Origin: an uncultured Kordia sp.
Lineage (GTDB): Bacteria > Bacteroidota > Bacteroidia > Flavobacteriales > Flavobacteriaceae
Assembly (NCBI RefSeq): GCF_947496985.1
Contig: NZ_CANMEZ010000002.1
Span: forward strand, 186,001 to 250,000
Direction: 5' to 3'
DNA length: 64,000 nucleotides
Below, one piece after another: positions 37,749 through 57,593 of this stretch. How positions within the stretch are numbered: position 1 is the stretch's first letter; every line of letters begins with the position of its first letter. The notes under the pieces are model-generated. The model searched no databases. It saw nothing but the letters and a program-made list of their open reading frames with translations, and was not told the DNA's origin. The position numbers were made by a program, and so were the translations under genes.

Positions 37749-38831
37749 TTAGGCATTTACAATTTTCTTTTGATGATTAATTGATTCTTGATGAATTGCT
37801 TTGAAGATGCGCAATACAAATTCTTCACTTAATTGATTTTGTTCTCCTTCTAAAATCATTTTTCCTAAAATCTCATTCCAACGTCTTGTTTGTAAAATTG
37901 CTACGTTTTTATCCTTCTTTAAAGCACCTATTTTATCAGCAACTTTCATACGTTTCCCTAACATTTCAATAAGTTGATGATCAATAACATCAATTTGTGT
38001 ACGGAATGTATTTAGTGCATTTCTATACTCTGCTTCTGTATCGGTTGCTTTTCTGATTTTTAAATCCTCCATCACTTCAACAAGTCTGGCAGGTGTAATC
38101 TGTTGTTTGGCATCACTCCAAGCATTGTCTGGGTCAAAATGTGTTTCTACCATTAATCCATCATAATTTAAATCTAATGCTGTTTGACAGATATCAAAAA
38201 TAATATCTCTTCGTCCTGCAATATGTGATGGATCTAGAATTAATGGCAAATCTGGGAAACGATTTTGCAATTCAATCGGAATTTGCCATTCTGGATTGTT
38301 TCTGTAGCGCGTTTTTTCATAGGTTGAAAATCCTCGGTGAATTACTCCTAGTTTTTCAATATTTGCCGAATATAATCGTTCTACTGCTCCTAACCACAAT
38401 GGTAAATCTGGATTTACAGGGTTTTTTATCAAAACAATTTTGTCTGTTCCGTTTAAAGCATCTGCGATTTCTTGTACAATAAATGGACTCACTGTTGATC
38501 GTGCGCCTATCCATAATATATCAATATCATGCTCTAATGCCAAACGAACGTGTGTTGCATTGGCAACTTCTGTTGCTGTAAGCATTCCTGTTTCTTCTTT
38601 TGCTTTTTGCAACCATTTTAGTCCAAGTGCTCCTACTCCTTCAAAGTTTCCTGGGCGCGTTCGTGGTTTCCAAATTCCTGCACGTAATACAGTTGCATCT
38701 GTATCTTTGAGCTGATGTGCTATTTTTAATACTTGATCTTCTGTTTCTGCACTACAAGGACCTGCAATTACTAATGGATGTTCTAATCCGAAAGCATTTA
38801 GCCAATTTCTAAGTTCTTTTTTATTTTCCAT
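37749..38831 (-). CDS. Bifunctional DAHP synthase / chorismate mutase
   Basis: First shikimate-pathway step fused to chorismate mutase. Residues 1-250 form a KDO8PS-like (type I-beta) DAHP synthase with HPLVIAGPCSAET, LRAGIWKPRTRPG and DPSHIAGRRD. Residues about 265-355 form an AroQ-type mutase (IDVIDHQLIEMLGKRMKVADKIGALKK). 360 residues in all, the usual Bacteroidota arrangement. It follows tyrA on the minus strand after a 286-base gap filled by dispersed repeats and completes the aromatic gene set. Confidence 0.95.
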   Translation of the reverse strand: MENKKELRNWLNAFGLEHPLVIAGPCSAETEDQVLKIAHQLKDTDATVLRAGIWKPRTRPGNFEGVGALGLKWLQKAKEETGMLTATEVANATHVRLALEHDIDILWIGARSTVSPFIVQEIADALNGTDKIVLIKNPVNPDLPLWLGAVERLYSANIEKLGVIHRGFSTYEKTRYRNNPEWQIPIELQNRFPDLPLILDPSHIAGRRDIIFDICQTALDLNYDGLMVETHFDPDNAWSDAKQQITPARLVEVMEDLKIRKATDTEAEYRNALNTFRTQIDVIDHQLIEMLGKRMKVADKIGALKKDKNVAILQTRRWNEILGKMILEGEQNQLSEEFVLRIFKAIHQESINHQKKIVNA

Positions 38832-39117: not shown

Positions 39118-39966
39118 TTATTCTATTCCGTTTAATATTTTTTTTATGTGATTTGCACTTTCCATCTCTTTATAAATACCTTCAAAATTATCTTTCAACA
39201 TTAATTCTTTAAACTCCTCTAAGTTAGTGATATACTCTTGTAATGTTTCGATAACGTTGGCTTTGTTTTGCTCAAATATTGGTGTCCACATCGCTGGTGA
39301 ACTTTTTGCCAAACGCACTGTGGAGGCAAATCCACTTCCTGCTAAGTCAAAGATATCACGTTCATTTTTTTCTTTTTCAATAACTGTCTTTCCTAACATA
39401 AATGAACTTATATGTGATAAATGCGATACATAGGCAATATGTTTATCGTGCGATTTTGAATCCATATATCGAATGCGCATTCCTAAGTTTTTGAATAATT
39501 CTAACGCTTTTTCTTGTAACGTGAATGCTGTTTTTTCTACTTCGCAAATGATGTTTGTTTTTCCTTTGAACAAATTTTTGATTGCAGCTTTTGGGCCCGA
39601 AAATTCAGTTCCTGCAATCGGATGTGCCGCTAAAAAATTTCTTCTTCTCGGATGATTTCCTATGCTTTCACAAATTTGTTCTTTCGTTGAACCTGCATCT
39701 ATGACAAGTGTTTGGTCGTTTATTGTATTTAAAACTTCCTTGATGACTCCGATAGATACATGTACTGGAATTGTGACAATAACAATATCTGCATTTTCTA
39801 CCTGTGAAAGTGTTGCTTTTTCATGAATAAGCTGTCTTTGCAGTGCTTCTTCTAAATGCGCATCGTTCGCATCAATTCCATAGATAGTTGCCTCGGGATA
39901 TGTTGATTGAATATCCAAAGACATGCTTCCTCCTATGAGTCCAATTCCTATGATGTATACATTCAT
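39118..39966 (-). CDS. tyrA: Prephenate dehydrogenase TyrA
   Basis: NAD-dependent step to 4-hydroxyphenylpyruvate in tyrosine synthesis. The frame extends to 40017, but I start at MNVYIIGIGLIGGSMSLD (39966): its ATG overlaps the aminotransferase stop as ATGA, giving translational coupling, and the Rossmann motif GIGLIGGS then sits at residues 7-14. The catalytic region HPIAGTEFSGP with its His is present. 282 residues; no ACT domain. Confidence 0.93.
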   Translation of the reverse strand: MNVYIIGIGLIGGSMSLDIQSTYPEATIYGIDANDAHLEEALQRQLIHEKATLSQVENADIVIVTIPVHVSIGVIKEVLNTINDQTLVIDAGSTKEQICESIGNHPRRRNFLAAHPIAGTEFSGPKAAIKNLFKGKTNIICEVEKTAFTLQEKALELFKNLGMRIRYMDSKSHDKHIAYVSHLSHISSFMLGKTVIEKEKNERDIFDLAGSGFASTVRLAKSSPAMWTPIFEQNKANVIETLQEYITNLEEFKELMLKDNFEGIYKEMESANHIKKILNGIE

Positions 39967-41117
39967 GATGCTATTATTCTGTTTATCACTTCTTTTATTT
40001 TTTCTTCCGAAACACATAATGAGAAACGAATATATCCTTCTCCTTGCGTTCCAAAAATGCTTCCTGGCGTAATAAATACGTCTTTTTCATAGAGCAATTT
40101 GTCTATGAATTCTGCTGAGCTTAGTGTATTATTTTCATGTAATTTTGCCCATACAAACATTCCTGATGTTTCAGTATCAAACGTACAATGCAACTTTGTC
40201 GCTAATTCCCAAATGAATTTACGTCGTTCTTTATAGATTTTATTCAAATCTGAAAACCAATCTTTGGAGCTCGCCAGTGCTTTTATAGCGCCTTTTTGAA
40301 TTCCATAAAACATTCCAGAATCCATATTACTTTTCACTTTTAACACATGCTGAATATGTTCCGCTTTTCCCATTACCATTCCTGTACGCCAACCAGCCAT
40401 GTTAAATGATTTACTTAAAGAGTTTAATTCTAAAGCTACTTCTTTGGCTCCATCAATTGATAAAATACTCAAAGGTTCATCGTTGAGAATAAAACTATAC
40501 GGATTGTCATTTATGATTAATATCTGATGTTTTTTGGCAAATACAATTAAGTCTTTAAAGAAATTTTTAGTTGCTTTGGCACCTGTCGGCATATGCGGAT
40601 AGTTTACCCACATAAGTTTTACTTTGCTTAAATCTTGCTGTTCAAGCACATCTAAATCTGGCAACCAATTGTTTGAAGCTTCTAAATCATAATATGTAGG
40701 AACAGCTCCTAACAGTTTTGTAACTGATGTGTATGTTGGGTAACTTGGATTTGCAATAAGTACTTCATCACCTTCATCTAAATACGCCATTGAAATATGC
40801 ATGATACCTTCTTTGCTTCCCATGAGCGGTAACACTTCATCATTCGCGCTAAGCGTAACATCATAATTTTTCTGATAAAAATCAGCAATCGCATTTCGTA
40901 AAGCTGGGATTCCTTGATAGCTTTGGTATTTATGAGCAATTTCGTCGTGCAAACTTGCTTCTAAAGCTTCAACTACAACCATTGGTGGCTGTAAATCTGG
41001 GCTTCCTATTCCTAAATTTACGATTGGTTTTCCGTCAGCGATTAATCCGCGTACTTCTCTTAATTTTTTAGAAAAGTAGTATTCTTCTACAGTATGTATT
41101 CGTTTTGCAGGAATCAT
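39963..41117 (-). CDS. PLP-dependent aminotransferase, aromatic pathway
   Basis: Class I/II aminotransferase of 384 residues in an operon with pheA and tyrA, so it probably transaminates phenylpyruvate and 4-hydroxyphenylpyruvate. Motifs include NLGIGSPDLQPP, NPSYPTY, NDNPYSF, the PLP lysine in LNSLSKSFNMAGWRTG and a C-terminal RFSLC. It overlaps both neighbours by one to four bases. Substrate is inferred from context. Confidence 0.92.
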   Translation of the reverse strand: MIPAKRIHTVEEYYFSKKLREVRGLIADGKPIVNLGIGSPDLQPPMVVVEALEASLHDEIAHKYQSYQGIPALRNAIADFYQKNYDVTLSANDEVLPLMGSKEGIMHISMAYLDEGDEVLIANPSYPTYTSVTKLLGAVPTYYDLEASNNWLPDLDVLEQQDLSKVKLMWVNYPHMPTGAKATKNFFKDLIVFAKKHQILIINDNPYSFILNDEPLSILSIDGAKEVALELNSLSKSFNMAGWRTGMVMGKAEHIQHVLKVKSNMDSGMFYGIQKGAIKALASSKDWFSDLNKIYKERRKFIWELATKLHCTFDTETSGMFVWAKLHENNTLSSAEFIDKLLYEKDVFITPGSIFGTQGEGYIRFSLCVSEEKIKEVINRIIAS

Positions 41118-41944
41118 TAGTTACGTTGATTTTTGTAGGTTCCTAGTACTTTTAAACTTGTGGTCATTATTTCTAAAATAGAAATGGCTTTGGTGTAATT
41201 TTCATAACTTTCAAAAGTTACATCAACGAAAAAAGCATATTTCCAAGGTGTTTCTATAATGGGTAATGATTGTATTTTTGTAAGATTGAGTTTGCAATCG
41301 CTCATAACGTTTAATACCGTTGCTAAACTTCCTCTTTTATGGTCGAGTTCAAAACGAATAGACGCTTTGTCTATTTGGTCAATACCATTTGTTGGTTTTT
41401 CTTTTTGAAGAATCACAAAACGTGTAACATTTGTTTTTATGGTTTGAATTTCTGCCGAAAGAATATTCAATTCAAACAATTCTGCTGCCGTTTTTGTGGC
41501 AATAGCAGCAACTCCTTTTAGCTGTTTTTCTTGAATTTTTTGTGCTACAGCTGCCGTATCTACATCTTCAACCAATTTGATATGTGGATATTGCTTGAAG
41601 AATTCTTTACACTGTAATAATGCCATTGGATGCGAGCATACTTCGGTAATATCTTCTATAGTTTGGTTTGACAATGCCATTAAATGATGATGAATATTTA
41701 AGTAAAATTCACCGTTGATATGAATATTATTAGCATCAATCAATGCGTAATTTGGGATGATAGAACCTGCAATGGTATTTTCAAGTGCCATAATAGCGTA
41801 CGCACTTTTTTCTTCCAATAAACTGTTTACTAACGCATCAAAAGACAAGCATTCATCTAACGGAACGTCGTTTCCAAAGTATGCTTCCGCAACTTTATGA
41901 TGGTTAGAGCCTTGAACTCCTTGTATAGCGATTATATTATTCAT
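41117..41944 (-). CDS. pheA: Prephenate dehydratase PheA
   Basis: Converts prephenate to phenylpyruvate in phenylalanine synthesis. The 275-residue protein has the PDT domain (IQGVQGSNHHKVAEAYF, MALENTIAGSI, catalytic TRF in NVTRFVIL) and a C-terminal ACT domain (about 195-270, HKRGSLATVLNVMS). The Phe-binding ESRP motif of many PDTs reads QSLP here (LTKIQSLPI), which could weaken feedback inhibition. First gene of the operon, after the attenuator. Confidence 0.94.
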   Translation of the reverse strand: MNNIIAIQGVQGSNHHKVAEAYFGNDVPLDECLSFDALVNSLLEEKSAYAIMALENTIAGSIIPNYALIDANNIHINGEFYLNIHHHLMALSNQTIEDITEVCSHPMALLQCKEFFKQYPHIKLVEDVDTAAVAQKIQEKQLKGVAAIATKTAAELFELNILSAEIQTIKTNVTRFVILQKEKPTNGIDQIDKASIRFELDHKRGSLATVLNVMSDCKLNLTKIQSLPIIETPWKYAFFVDVTFESYENYTKAISILEIMTTSLKVLGTYKNQRN

Positions 41945-42048: not shown

Positions 42049-42079
42049 AAAAAAAAAGTTCCGATTATCTCGGAACTTT
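42049..42079 (-). terminator. Attenuator terminator of the pheA operon
   Basis: A 10-bp stem (42055-42064 with 42070-42079, core AGTTCCGA) with a 5-base loop, followed on the minus strand by a run of nine U. It lies between the leader peptide stop and the pheA ATG, so it would end transcription before the structural genes. Confidence 0.85.
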
Positions 42080-42110
42080 CTTTTTATATATTGTGTTTAT
42101 TTACATAAAA

Positions 42111-42188
42111 CTATACAACAAGGAGTTCCTGCTTCTTTCCGTAGAAGAAGTAAAAATAACCTTGCCAAAAATAGTTTGTACTAAACAT
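42111..42188 (-). CDS. Aromatic leader peptide (pheA operon attenuator)
   Basis: A 25-residue ORF on the minus strand upstream of pheA. It starts MFSTNYFWQGYFYFFYG and ends LLVV; 10 of 25 residues are Phe, Tyr or Trp, with six in a row at positions 11-16. GGAACT in its 3' part (plus-strand AGTTCC 42124-42129) can pair with the AGUUCC of the terminator's first arm and so form an antiterminator. This is the classic ribosome-stalling arrangement responding to Phe/Tyr supply. The ORF is too short for standard annotation. Confidence 0.87.
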   Translation of the reverse strand: MFSTNYFWQGYFYFFYGKKQELLVV

Positions 42189-42207: not shown

Positions 42208-42236
42208 CTAAAGTATAGATTAATTTTAAAATTCAA
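42208..42236 (-). promoter_or_regulatory. Probable promoter of the pheA leader and operon
   Basis: On the minus strand TTG (42236-42234), 18 bases, then TACTTTAG (42215-42208), about 20 bases before the leader peptide ATG. A weaker match than the peptide promoters. Confidence 0.5.
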
Positions 42237-42342
42237 AATCCTTTTTTCAATATTTTTTAAAGAAAAACGTTTTTAGCAATAATCTGTAGTATTTTTTGTT
42301 TTTATTTAATTGAAAGTTAAGAAATACTGATAAAAATTTATG

Positions 42343-42368: not shown

Positions 42369-43265
42369 ATGTCTATAGTTGTAGAAAATATTACGAAAGT
42401 TTATGGCGAACAAAAAGCGTTGAATAATGTTTCGTTCACTATAAAAAAAGGTGAAATTGTTGGTTTTTTAGGTCCTAATGGTGCTGGAAAGTCTACTATG
42501 ATGAAAATATTGACTACGTATTTAAAAGCTACTACAGGAAATGCTACTGTAAATGAGTTTGATACAAATGCCAATGCTAAAAATGTTCAGAAGAGTGTTG
42601 GGTATTTACCAGAACACAATCCGTTGTATTTAGATATGCACGTTCGTGAGTATTTAGCGTTTAACGCGAATGTATACAAATCGCCTAAATCACGAATTGA
42701 AGAAGTCATAGAAATGACAGGCTTAACGCCAGAAGCTAGCAAAAAGATTGGAGAACTTTCAAAAGGATATCGTCAACGTGTTGGATTGGCAAATGCATTA
42801 TTGCATGATCCTGAAGTATTAATTCTAGACGAACCTACAACTGGATTAGATCCAAATCAATTGACGGAAATTCGTAATTTGATTACTTCAATCGGAAAAG
42901 AAAAAACTATTTTCTTATCTACACATATTATGCAAGAAGTAGAGGCTATTTGCGATCGTGTCATTATTATTAATAAGGGTGTAATTGTTGCTGATACTAC
43001 TTTAGCTAAACTGAAAAAAGACCAAGAACAAGTAATTGAAGTTGAGTTTGATTATCGTATTGAAGATGTTTTGATTCAGCAAATCCCACATGTTGTACAA
43101 GTAGTCAATACGCGTGGATTGGTATATGAAATTACTTTTAGCACTTCAAAAGATATGCGTTCAAAAGTATTTGATTTTGCACATGACAATGGTTTGAAGG
43201 CCTTACAAATTAATCAAAAGAACAAAAACTTAGAAAGTTTATTTAGAGAATTGACGGCAGAATAA
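42369..43265 (+). CDS. gldA: Gliding motility ABC transporter ATP-binding protein GldA
   Basis: ATPase subunit of the Gld ABC transporter (with GldF and GldG, not in this window). The 298-residue protein has Walker A GPNGAGKST at residues 35-43, signature LSKGYRQRVGLA, Walker B LILDEPTTGLDP and the H-loop STHIMQEV. The N-terminus MSIVVENITKVYGEQKAL is typical of GldA rather than other ABC ATPases. Confidence 0.92.
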   Translation: MSIVVENITKVYGEQKALNNVSFTIKKGEIVGFLGPNGAGKSTMMKILTTYLKATTGNATVNEFDTNANAKNVQKSVGYLPEHNPLYLDMHVREYLAFNANVYKSPKSRIEEVIEMTGLTPEASKKIGELSKGYRQRVGLANALLHDPEVLILDEPTTGLDPNQLTEIRNLITSIGKEKTIFLSTHIMQEVEAICDRVIIINKGVIVADTTLAKLKKDQEQVIEVEFDYRIEDVLIQQIPHVVQVVNTRGLVYEITFSTSKDMRSKVFDFAHDNGLKALQINQKNKNLESLFRELTAE

Positions 43266-53255: not shown

Positions 53256-53333
53256 CAGGCGTTCCCTTCGGTCGTGCTATTCGCTATATCTCCCGAGCAA
53301 ATCGGGAGGATGCCGCTACTATCACTAACGCGC
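53256..53333. repeat. Composite dispersed repeat, outer element alone
   Basis: AGGCGTTCCC, then GTGCTATTCGCTATATCT, a hairpin (CTCCCGAGCAAATCGGGAG) and GATGCCGCTACTATCACTAACGC. It ends beside the metH stop. The two other copies (38939, 57235) have a second element inserted between the halves; this one has only the short hairpin. Confidence 0.75.
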
Positions 53334-53334
53334 G

Positions 53335-56010
53335 TTAATCTGCTAAGGTTGGATGCAACCATTTTTGCGCTTTTTCAATTGTGATTCCTTTTCTGTTTGC
53401 AAAATCTTCTACTTGATCTTGAGTAATTTTTCCCAATCCAAAATATTTAGCTTCTGCATTTCCAAAATAATATCCTGAAACCGCTGCTGCTGGCCACATA
53501 GCTAAACTTTCGGTTAGTGAAACACCAATTACTTTTTCCACATCTAACAATTCCCAAATGGTTTCTTTTTCTAAATGATCTGGACATGCTGGATATCCTG
53601 GTGCTGGACGAATTCCTTTGTATGTTTCTTTTATTAATTCTTCATTCGTTAACGCTTCATTTGATGCATATCCCCAATGTTTCGTTCGAACCTGTTTGTG
53701 TAAGTATTCAGCAAAAGCTTCTGCAAATCGATCCGCAATTGCTTGTGCCATAATTGCATTGTAATCGTCTTGTTGTACTTTGTAACTATTTGCTAATTCA
53801 TCAGCTCCAAAAATAGCTGTACAAAATGCACCCATGTAATCTGTTTTTCCTGTTTCTTTTGGTGCAATGAAATCTGCTAGAGCAATATTTGGCACTTCCG
53901 CTCTCTTCTCTAATTGTTGACGTAAGGTTCTGAAAATACCTATTTCTTTTCCTTTTTTCTGAATTGAAATATCATCATCATTGATCGTGTTTGCTTCAAA
54001 CAATCCGAAAATTGCTTTCGCTTTTAATGATTGTTTTGCAATGATTTCTTTAATCATTTCTTGTGCATCCGAATATAATTGTGTTGCCTGTTCTCCAACC
54101 ACATCATCTGTTAAGATTGCTGGATAACGTCCGTGTAAGTCCCACGATCTAAAGAATGGACTCCAATCAATATATGGAACTAATTCTTTCAAACTGAGTT
54201 GTGTTAACTTCTGAATTCCTAGTTCATTGGGTTTTGTAATGTTACTGGTTTCCCAGTCAATTTTATATTTTTTCTTTCTGGCATCAGCTAATGAAATGTA
54301 TGATTTTGCTTTTCTACGCTTTAAGAACTTTTCGCGAAATTCATCATAATCTTGCTTTAATTTTTCACGATACGCTTTTGATTTTTTCTTGTTTAGTAAA
54401 TCTCCAACTACCGTTACTGCTCTTGATGCATCATTGACATGTACTACTGCATTTTTGTATTCTGGATCAATTTTTACAGCCGTATGCGCTTTGGAAGTTG
54501 TAGCACCTCCGATAAGCAATGGAATTTCTAAGTTTTGACGTTCCATTTCTTTAGCTAGGTATACCATTTCATCCAATGAAGGCGTTATTAAACCTGATAA
54601 TCCAATGGCATCTACATTTTCTGCTTTCGCAGTTTCTATTATTTTTTCTGGCGGAACCATCACACCTAAGTCTACAATTTCGTAGTTATTACAACCTAAT
54701 ACAACACTTACTATATTTTTTCCAATATCGTGTACATCTCCTTTTACAGTTGCCATCAATACTTTCCCGATGGCTTGTTGTTGTTCTCCTTTTTCAGCTT
54801 CAATAAAAGGGTTTAGGTAGGCAACTGCTTTTTTCATTACACGTGCCGATTTTACTACTTGTGGAAGGAACATTTTCCCTGACCCGAATAAATCTCCAAC
54901 GACATTCATTCCAATCATAAGGTTACCTTCTATAACTTCTATAGGTTTTTCTGCTTTTACACGTGCTTCTTCTACATCTTCAACAATGTATTTATCAATT
55001 CCTTTGACAAGCGAATGTGTAATACGATCTTGCAATTCATAACTACGCCATTCTTGTACGGTTTCCGTATCTGCTTTTTTAATTCCTTTGAATGATTCTG
55101 CCAAGTCTAGCAAACGCTCTGTTGCATCTTCTCTTCTGTCAAGAATTACATCTTCTACATGTTCTAGTAAGTCTTTTGGAATATCATCATAGACTTCCAA
55201 CATGGTCGGATTTACGATTCCCATGTTCATTCCAGCTTGAATGGCATGATATAGAAATACAGAATGCATTGCTTCACGTACAATATTATTTCCTCTGAAT
55301 GAAAACGATACATTACTCACTCCTCCACTTACACTTACGTTGGGATAGTTTTCACGTGTCCAGCGTGTAGCTTCAATGAAGTCGATTGCATTTTTACGAT
55401 GCTCTTCCATTCCTGTTGCGACAGGAAATATGTTTAAATCGAAAATGATGTCTTCTTCTGGAAATCCTACTTTGTTGACTAATACATCACGTGAACGTTT
55501 TACTATTTCTAAGCGCCTTTCATAATTGTCTGCTTGTCCAACCTCATCAAATGCCATGACAATTACGGCAGCTCCATATCGTTTGATTTGTGTTGCTTCC
55601 CAGATAAATTTTTCTTCTCCTTCTTTTAGTGATATCGAATTTACGACACATTTCCCCTGTACCACTTGTAAACCAGCTTCTATGATTTCCCATTTAGAAC
55701 TATCGATCATGATTGGGACTCGACAGATATCTGGTTCGGCAGCTATAAGATTTAGAAACTTTACCATCGCTTCTTTTCCATCAATTAAACCATCGTCCAT
55801 ATTGATATCAATAATTTGTGCACCACCATCTACTTGATGCCTAGCAATTGCTAAAGCTTCATCAAATTTTTCTTCTTTAACGAGTCGCAAAAATTTACGT
55901 GAACCTGCTACATTTGTACGTTCTCCTACATTTACAAAGTTGCTATTTTCGTTTAGAACCAACGGTTCTAAACCTGAAAGTCGCATGTATTTTGTTTGTT
56001 TATTTTTCAT
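53335..56010 (-). CDS. metH: Methionine synthase, C-terminal half (B12-binding and activation)
   Basis: Cobalamin-dependent methionine synthase modules for 5-methyl-THF binding, cobalamin binding and reactivation. The 891-residue protein has a pterin-binding domain (about 20-320), a B12 domain with the D425-VHDIG motif (His427 as the cobalt ligand) and a C-terminal activation domain with [14 protein letters not shown] and [13 protein letters not shown]. The homocysteine-binding part is a separate gene (56169), giving a split MetH, which is common in Flavobacteria. Confidence 0.95.
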
Positions 56011-57202: not shown

Positions 57203-57234
57203 TTTGCTTTTATTTATTAAGTACCTTTTACTTC

Positions 57235-57413
57235 GGCGTTAAGGATAGCAGCGACATCCTTTTTAAAAAATTTTGGCACGTGATTACGAAGAAATTTTAC
57301 GAAGTAATCTGATTATGAAATGTACAGATTGCCCCGAATTTTCACAAATTCTCGCAAAGACGTTATCTTTTAAAAAGATATAGCGAATAGCCTGACCCGT
57401 TAGGGTAACGCCC
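57235..57413. repeat. Composite dispersed repeat, copy 3, between riboswitch and metH
   Basis: On the minus strand, GGGCGTTACCC, TCAGGCTATTCGCTATATC, then an inserted inner element (with TTTGCGAGAA, GGCAATCTG and CAGATTACTTCG), then GGATGTCGCTGCTATCCTTAACGCC. This matches the order in copy 1 (38939). The inner element is absent from the copy at 53256. Confidence 0.75.
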
Positions 57414-57466
57414 AAATAATTATGTGTATCAAAAAAGTGTGAGGAAATGATGAGAATTTCTCTTTT

Positions 57467-57566
57467 GTTATCTATCTGTATAGTACAGTAGAACGTAGCA
57501 CCTTCTTTAAATGTAAAGGGTTGCTAAGGCTTCAGCGGGTCTATTCCCTCGGCCTTTCTTGATAAC
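57467..57566 (-). ncRNA. SAM-I (S-box) riboswitch upstream of metH
   Basis: S-adenosylmethionine sensor controlling the methionine genes. On the minus strand it has the hallmark order GTTATCAAGAAAGG (P1 and the kink-turn start), GAGGGA, GACCCGCTGAAGCC, TTAGCAACC, a P3 stem (CTTTA/TAAAG) and GGTGCTAC, then a P4 hairpin (CTGTA/TACAG) and GATAAC closing P1 (plus-strand 57467-57472 with 57561-57566). The order and the conserved GAAGCC and GGTGCTA elements fit the family well. Metabolic context agrees. The expression platform is not clear. Confidence 0.88.
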
Positions 57567-57593
57567 GACAGTATAGGTATGAACTATTTTACA

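Follow-up and report, generated by a model that had tools for sequence, protein, structure and literature searches.

The minus strand between gldA and pheA in the genome of an uncultured Kordia sp. very probably encodes, as judged from sequence, a classical ribosome-mediated transcription attenuator of an operon comprising pheA, an aminotransferase gene, tyrA and a gene for DAHP synthase fused to chorismate mutase. A short ORF carrying consecutive codons for the regulated amino acids precedes an intrinsic terminator, which lies ahead of the first gene. All coordinates refer to the window, i.e., the whole stretch of 64,000 nucleotides that was analysed.

A leader ORF and a terminator precede the pheA operon

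The first-pass annotation had proposed a 25-codon ORF with six aromatic residues in a row, ending 32 nt before a terminator hairpin with nine U, upstream of pheA, an aminotransferase gene and tyrA. The ORF was borne out on the minus strand (42188-42111), with ten aromatic residues of which nine are Phe or Tyr and one is Trp. The hairpin was found downstream of it, together with a run of nine T at 42057-42049 on the same strand; the ORF does end shortly before the stem, at a distance of 31 nt and not 32. The location upstream of the three genes was confirmed as well, and DAHP synthase-chorismate mutase was added as the fourth gene (Table 1). The ACT match of pheA fell slightly below its cut-off, and tyrA probably starts near 39966, since the profile match begins at residue 18. 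The nearest named relatives of this PheA are those of Kordia, at 85-90% identity.

Of the 80 named loci, 70 have full flanks, and 69 of these show the gene order pheA, aminotransferase, tyrA and DAHP synthase-chorismate mutase. On the other side of the leader, gldA (42369-43265, plus strand; NCBIfam TIGR03522 above cut-off) is transcribed divergently, and a divergent gldA within 1 kb of the pheA leader was present in 34 of the same 70 loci.

Promoters of Bacteroidota have the consensus TTTG / TAnnTTTG, and a candidate of this type was read by eye ahead of the leader. A looser pattern, TTG-N17-23-TAnnTT.G, which the site in the window fits, was present no more than 95 nt ahead of the leader in 129 of 196 cases as compared to 5 of 196 shuffles. 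The strict TAnnTTTG within 60 nt gave a weaker signal (50 of 196 leaders versus 15 shuffles).

Table 1 Features of the pheA leader and operon in the window.
Feature	Position	Strand	Sequence or partner	Basis or remark
Promoter candidate, Bacteroidota type	42208..42237	-	TTTG (42237-42234), 18-nt spacer, TACTTTAG (42215-42208)	read by eye
Leader peptide ORF	42111..42188	-	MFSTNYFWQGYFYFFYGKKQELLVV, stop TAG	similar leaders in relatives
Segment 1, 5' strand of inner protector helix	42160..42166	-	GGCAAGG, pairs with CCTTGTTG (42123-42116)	MFE folds
Control codons (codons 11-16)	42141..42158	-	YFYFFY	six consecutive aromatics
Segment 2, antiterminator strand within ORF	42124..42129	-	GGAACT	complementarity, covariation, folds
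Terminator stem	42079-42055	-	AAAGTTCCGA (42079-42070) / TCGGAACTTT (42064-42055)	
Segment 3, shared arm	42070..42079	-	AAAGTTCCGA, partner is segment 2 or 4	
Segment 4, 3' arm of terminator	42049..42064	-	TCGGAACTTT and remaining U run	
pheA, prephenate dehydratase with ACT-like domain	41117..41944	-		Pfam PF00800, E 4.5e-52, above cut-off
Class I/II aminotransferase	39963..41117	-		PF00155
tyrA, prephenate dehydrogenase	39118..40017	-		NF006307, above cut-off
DAHP synthase fused to chorismate mutase	37749..38831	-		PF00793 and PF01817, above cut-offs

The arrangement is conserved in Flavobacteriaceae

The sequence ahead of pheA, at most 650 nt per locus, was searched with a rule that demanded an ORF 10-45 codons long in which a stretch of 12 codons holds six or more Phe or Tyr, and a stop codon 0-90 nt ahead of a terminator with a stem of at least 7. 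Overall, 202 of 210 upstream regions passed. Controls made from the same regions almost never did (dinucleotide shuffles 1/1050, reverse complements 4/210), which argues against a chance arrangement. Among named Flavobacteriaceae loci 78 of 80 passed (reverse complements 2/80, shuffles 1/400). Loci from genomes of the same family passed in 29 of 30 cases in a first set, of which the window is one (1/30 and 0/150), and in 75 of 76 cases in a second (0/76 and 0/380), giving 104 of 106 with the window included. Loci from other families passed in 20 of 24 cases (1/24 and 0/120). The locus sets overlap, and the rates are not those of a random sample because loci were chosen by PheA similarity. Of the 106 same-family loci, 104 came from 178 genomes with a PheA match, sampled from the top and the bottom of that list with the middle left out, and two (G252 and G279) from a separate search. 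Such a comparison had been suggested by the first-pass annotation; both the aromatic-rich ORF and the terminator are kept across the family and in most genomes of the class that were sampled.

Eight of the 210 regions failed the rule. One leader (L104) lies 526 nt upstream, its start being beyond the scanned stretch, one (L037) has five Phe or Tyr in 12 codons, and a third (L199) shows, by eye, a longer terminator loop. At L058 the sequence covers 162 nt ahead of pheA, in which segment 2 and the terminator can be made out. In three loci (L188-L190) the place immediately ahead of pheA is taken by a different coding frame, which resembles aroA by eye, and at L162 no leader was seen before pheA. 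By eye, the 526 nt separating terminator and pheA at L104 contain repeated units; long spacers at this place were also seen in two Kordia loci, L003 and L005.

Phe and Tyr codons occupy fixed positions ahead of the antiterminator strand

After dropping identical sequences, 197 distinct leaders remained out of 207 (the 202 rule matches and five later ones). All 197 contain both Phe and Tyr codons, with totals of 704 TTT, 313 TTC, 515 TAT and 205 TAC, corresponding to 1017 Phe and 720 Tyr residues. Counted back from the antiterminator strand, codon positions -5 to -8 hold Phe or Tyr in 91-98% of leaders. Position -5 is mostly Phe (75% versus 17% Tyr), Tyr makes up about one third at -6 and -7, and at -8 it is the commoner residue (55%). 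The same positions exchange Phe and Tyr between leaders, and third codon positions exchange T and C, as expected if selection acts on codon identity.

From the start of the final run codon to segment 2 the distance is 13 nt (IQR 12-14), and from the start of segment 2 to the end of the stop codon it has a median of 17 nt (10th-90th percentile 3-24). Given the footprint of a ribosome, this spacing would leave segment 2 exposed when the ribosome stalls in the run and covered once it has reached the stop codon. Segment 2 is conserved as RNA, its reading frame varying between genera (e.g., NETL or RDF), and in some parts of the family motifs such as YFWNGFYFYFF recur in the N-terminal half of the leader. 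Trp codons are found in 129 of 197 leaders. Trp may be a third input, with the reservation that the position of this codon is not fixed among leaders and that in the window it overlaps the protector strand.

Competing RNA structures are predicted and covary

Folding of the 161-nt leader yielded a z-score of -5.88, and none of 200 shuffles was equally stable. A terminator pattern scan reported the hairpin on the plus strand only; we think that it was missed on the minus strand because stem extension there uses up the U run. When the leader was compared with Rfam, which includes a Phe leader family, no family reached its gathering score, and the nine matches up to an E-value of 5 included no amino-acid leader.

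Three states were modelled for the window, their energies being equilibrium predictions and not kinetics. In the free RNA, before the terminator is made, a protector helix is predicted to hide segment 2 (-24.6 kcal/mol). With a ribosome on the final run codon, the RNA that remains free is predicted to adopt the antiterminator fold (-13.5 kcal/mol, z-score -3.68, 1 of 200 shuffles equally stable), and once the ribosome has reached the stop codon the predicted structure is the terminator (-12.9 kcal/mol for the stretch folded). Across leaders, the mean probability that segment 2 pairs with upstream RNA was 0.71, in comparison to 0.45 with the upstream part shuffled, and higher than the shuffled value in 182 of 197; a protector helix 1:2 is thereby predicted. 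For two leaders of the genus (L005 and L083), the predicted fold of the RNA up to segment 3 is the antiterminator even when no ribosome is present.

The complementarity of GGAACT (42129-42124, within the ORF) to AGTTCC (42077-42072), pointed out in the first-pass annotation, was confirmed, and the predicted antiterminator covaries in relatives. Among 179 distinct sequences, segment 2 pairs with its own segment 3 at a mean of -10.6 kcal/mol, as compared with -7.7 kcal/mol (sd 0.16) for permuted partners, and none of 10000 permutations was as low. Segment 3 occurs as AGTCTC, AGTCCC, AGTTCC, AGTCCT, AATCCC, GGTCCC, AGCCTC and AATCCTG, with other, untabulated forms in 15 of 179. In all eight forms the average pairing of segment 2 was best with the segment 3 form of the same genomes; on average 13% of foreign segments 3 beat the own partner of a given segment 2. 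Common ancestry accounts for much of the change between segment 3 forms.

In 106 leaders with a seven-column core (one of 107 was dropped, its core being absent), the five central columns are paired in 106, 106, 106, 105 and 104 cases, counts which are favoured by the choice of the segment 2 register as the best duplex, a choice made likewise in the permutation null. Each central column shows Watson-Crick replacements on both sides, and the outer two columns are paired in only 72 and 84 of 106. Changes on both sides were counted in 6 branch-columns versus 0.63 expected, 4 of them within the five central columns. A count over 39 disjoint sister pairs with 263 aligned triplets had little power, with 1 both-sided, 5 arm-only and 7 segment-2-only changes. 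The case for covariation rests on the permutation test, the five almost always paired columns with two-sided replacements and the branch count. Mutual exclusivity of antiterminator and terminator is found by permutation and column counts, the sister-pair count being weak by itself.

The leader extends through much of the class and follows a type of PheA

Of 27 genomes with PheA from the same class but outside the order, 26 were examined, the 27th having no listed place; 21 of these pass the rule, or 23 when two loci read by eye (L199 and L236) are counted. Three genomes of the same order but another family were left out of the counts. Outside the class, 29 of 158 genomes with a PheA match were examined. 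None of the 25 whose PheA is 31-38% identical to that of the window passes the rule, which was applied without reading by eye and misses long loops. All four with a PheA at 44-46% (G346, G212, G261 and G324) do pass, and three of their families are also represented among the 25. In a 23-row PheA tree, the PheA proteins of these four genomes fall among class members, though not together, and are separated (split 90/90) from the seven rows outside the class that lack a leader; G271, a class row lacking a leader, lies there too.

Taken together, the rule results outside the class and the tree indicate that presence of the leader tracks a particular type of PheA. Operon and attenuator were likely transferred together to some lineages outside the class, a reading to which the sequences lend moderate support. 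Alternatively, it is possible that the leaders outside the class reflect wrong binning of these genomes.

Proposed mechanism and alternative explanations

In the proposed mechanism, plentiful charged tRNA-Phe and tRNA-Tyr would let the ribosome proceed to the stop codon, where it would cover segment 2, so that terminator 3:4 forms and transcription ends. If either tRNA is short, the ribosome would stall in the Phe/Tyr run, its front close to segment 2 but not over it; helix 2:3 would then form and RNA polymerase would continue into the operon. If the leader is not translated, the predicted protector 1:2 would hide segment 2 and lead to termination.

That both amino acids are sensed, and not Phe alone, is the reading we prefer, and we hold it to be reasonably probable. 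Sensing of Tyr is uncertain because the AroR leader of Corynebacterium glutamicum reportedly responds to limitation of Phe and not of Tyr (PMC11802643). The same attenuator might accordingly sense only Phe, with Tyr codons tolerated as a means of keeping the RNA U-rich and the codons spaced, a possibility that we consider the lesser one; besides AroR, the surplus of Phe over Tyr and the dominance of Phe at position -5 fit it. The frequency of Tyr at positions -8 to -6, the occurrence of Tyr codons in every distinct leader and an operon whose products include Tyr as well as Phe point the other way.

Departures from attenuation by codon-specific stalling fare far worse. A nascent-chain sensor of the TnaC type, in which ribosome arrest results from the binding of a free aromatic amino acid by the leader peptide itself, could draw on the recurring N-terminal pattern, but the peptide itself is not conserved, given the interchange of Phe and Tyr at the same positions and the differing frame of segment 2; judged by the requirements of TnaC, it is very improbable. 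We give just as little credence to control independent of the ribosome, by a T-box, a riboswitch or an RNA-binding protein, with the ORF present by chance: the 5' region is indeed structured and its fold very stable, yet it reached the gathering score of no Rfam family and the in-frame Phe/Tyr run is kept in family and class. Least credible of all, to the point of being negligible, is an accidental ORF in an AT-rich region, where Phe and Tyr codons are U-rich anyway, next to a terminator that belongs to another transcript; the shuffles and reverse complements almost never pass the rule.

For the wider proposition that the two-input attenuator, responding to shortage of Phe or Tyr, dates back to the ancestor of the class and travelled with the operon outside it, we see an even chance. 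Attenuation of this kind requires a ribosome that closely follows RNA polymerase, and genes of Bacteroidota mostly start without help from a Shine-Dalgarno sequence. The pheA attenuator across much of the class, along with similar leaders near his, ilv and trp genes of this genome, suggests that transcription and translation are coupled in Bacteroidota; if the two-input, class-ancestral reading is true, they keep ribosome and RNA polymerase tightly coupled. The comparison also yields 197 distinct leader peptides and raises the question of whether a single leader can sense two amino acids.

Relation to known systems

A comparative study of attenuation, reportedly by Lopatovskaya et al. in 2010, may already contain leaders of this kind. 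The novelty implied by the first-pass annotation was overstated. Rfam already holds Bacteroid-trp (RF01692; listed in PMC2864571), likewise a peptide-encoding leader RNA of Bacteroidetes, which is directed at Trp and another operon and which the pheA leader does not match. Moreover, a structured 5' element upstream of pheA, conserved in Flavobacteriaceae and without an Rfam hit, was reported for Flavobacterium psychrophilum in 2021, along with strong indications that amino-acid operons in general are preceded by attenuators of the leader-peptide type (PMC9723704). This is probably the same element as the leader in the window; the accessible portion of that account describes neither leader peptide nor codons nor covariation of the pheA element. 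What is added here is the class-wide extent and the paired Phe/Tyr codons. Among the open-licence matches listed, no title or beginning of an abstract describes pheA of Bacteroidota as preceded by a Phe/Tyr leader peptide, PMC9723704 being nearest; leader-like sORFs in Bacteroides are mentioned in PMC7366714, and PMC4833913, in the portion accessible, handles leader genes of Bacteroidetes only as a distance statistic.

The pheA attenuator of E. coli (pheL) likewise has a leader peptide before pheA and is described as controlled by charged tRNA-Phe (PMC11802643). In contrast to pheL, the Kordia leader interleaves Phe and Tyr codons, and its operon also makes Tyr and DAHP. AroR of C. glutamicum shares Phe-Tyr-Phe ahead of an operon with DAHP synthase, but comes from an actinobacterium and precedes a different operon, in addition to its reported response to Phe and not Tyr (PMC11802643).

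Other leaders and RNAs in the genome and window

Application of the rule before both aspartokinase-homoserine dehydrogenase genes of the genome gave no leader, nor did it at two of the three chorismate-binding genes. A Trp leader, MNTNLVNTWWWNLRTQKS, with a terminator was observed before a trpE-like gene (L246), a locus that matches Bacteroid-trp with 62.6 bits. Ahead of hisG (L243) lies a His leader, MTFTQLHHHHFHTGNQAR, with a terminator 31 nt further on and about 41 nt ahead of the hisG start, and an Ile/Val leader, MNQTIISIIVIVIIIMNST, with a terminator is located about 1.2 kb upstream of ilvD (L244). Within the window itself, two matches to Flavo-1 RNA, for whose function no real clue is reported in the accessible part of PMC9723704, were detected at 53266-53348 (minus strand) and 57226-57401 (plus strand), one of them about 60 nt from a SAM riboswitch at 57465-57568 on the minus strand (81.3 bits).
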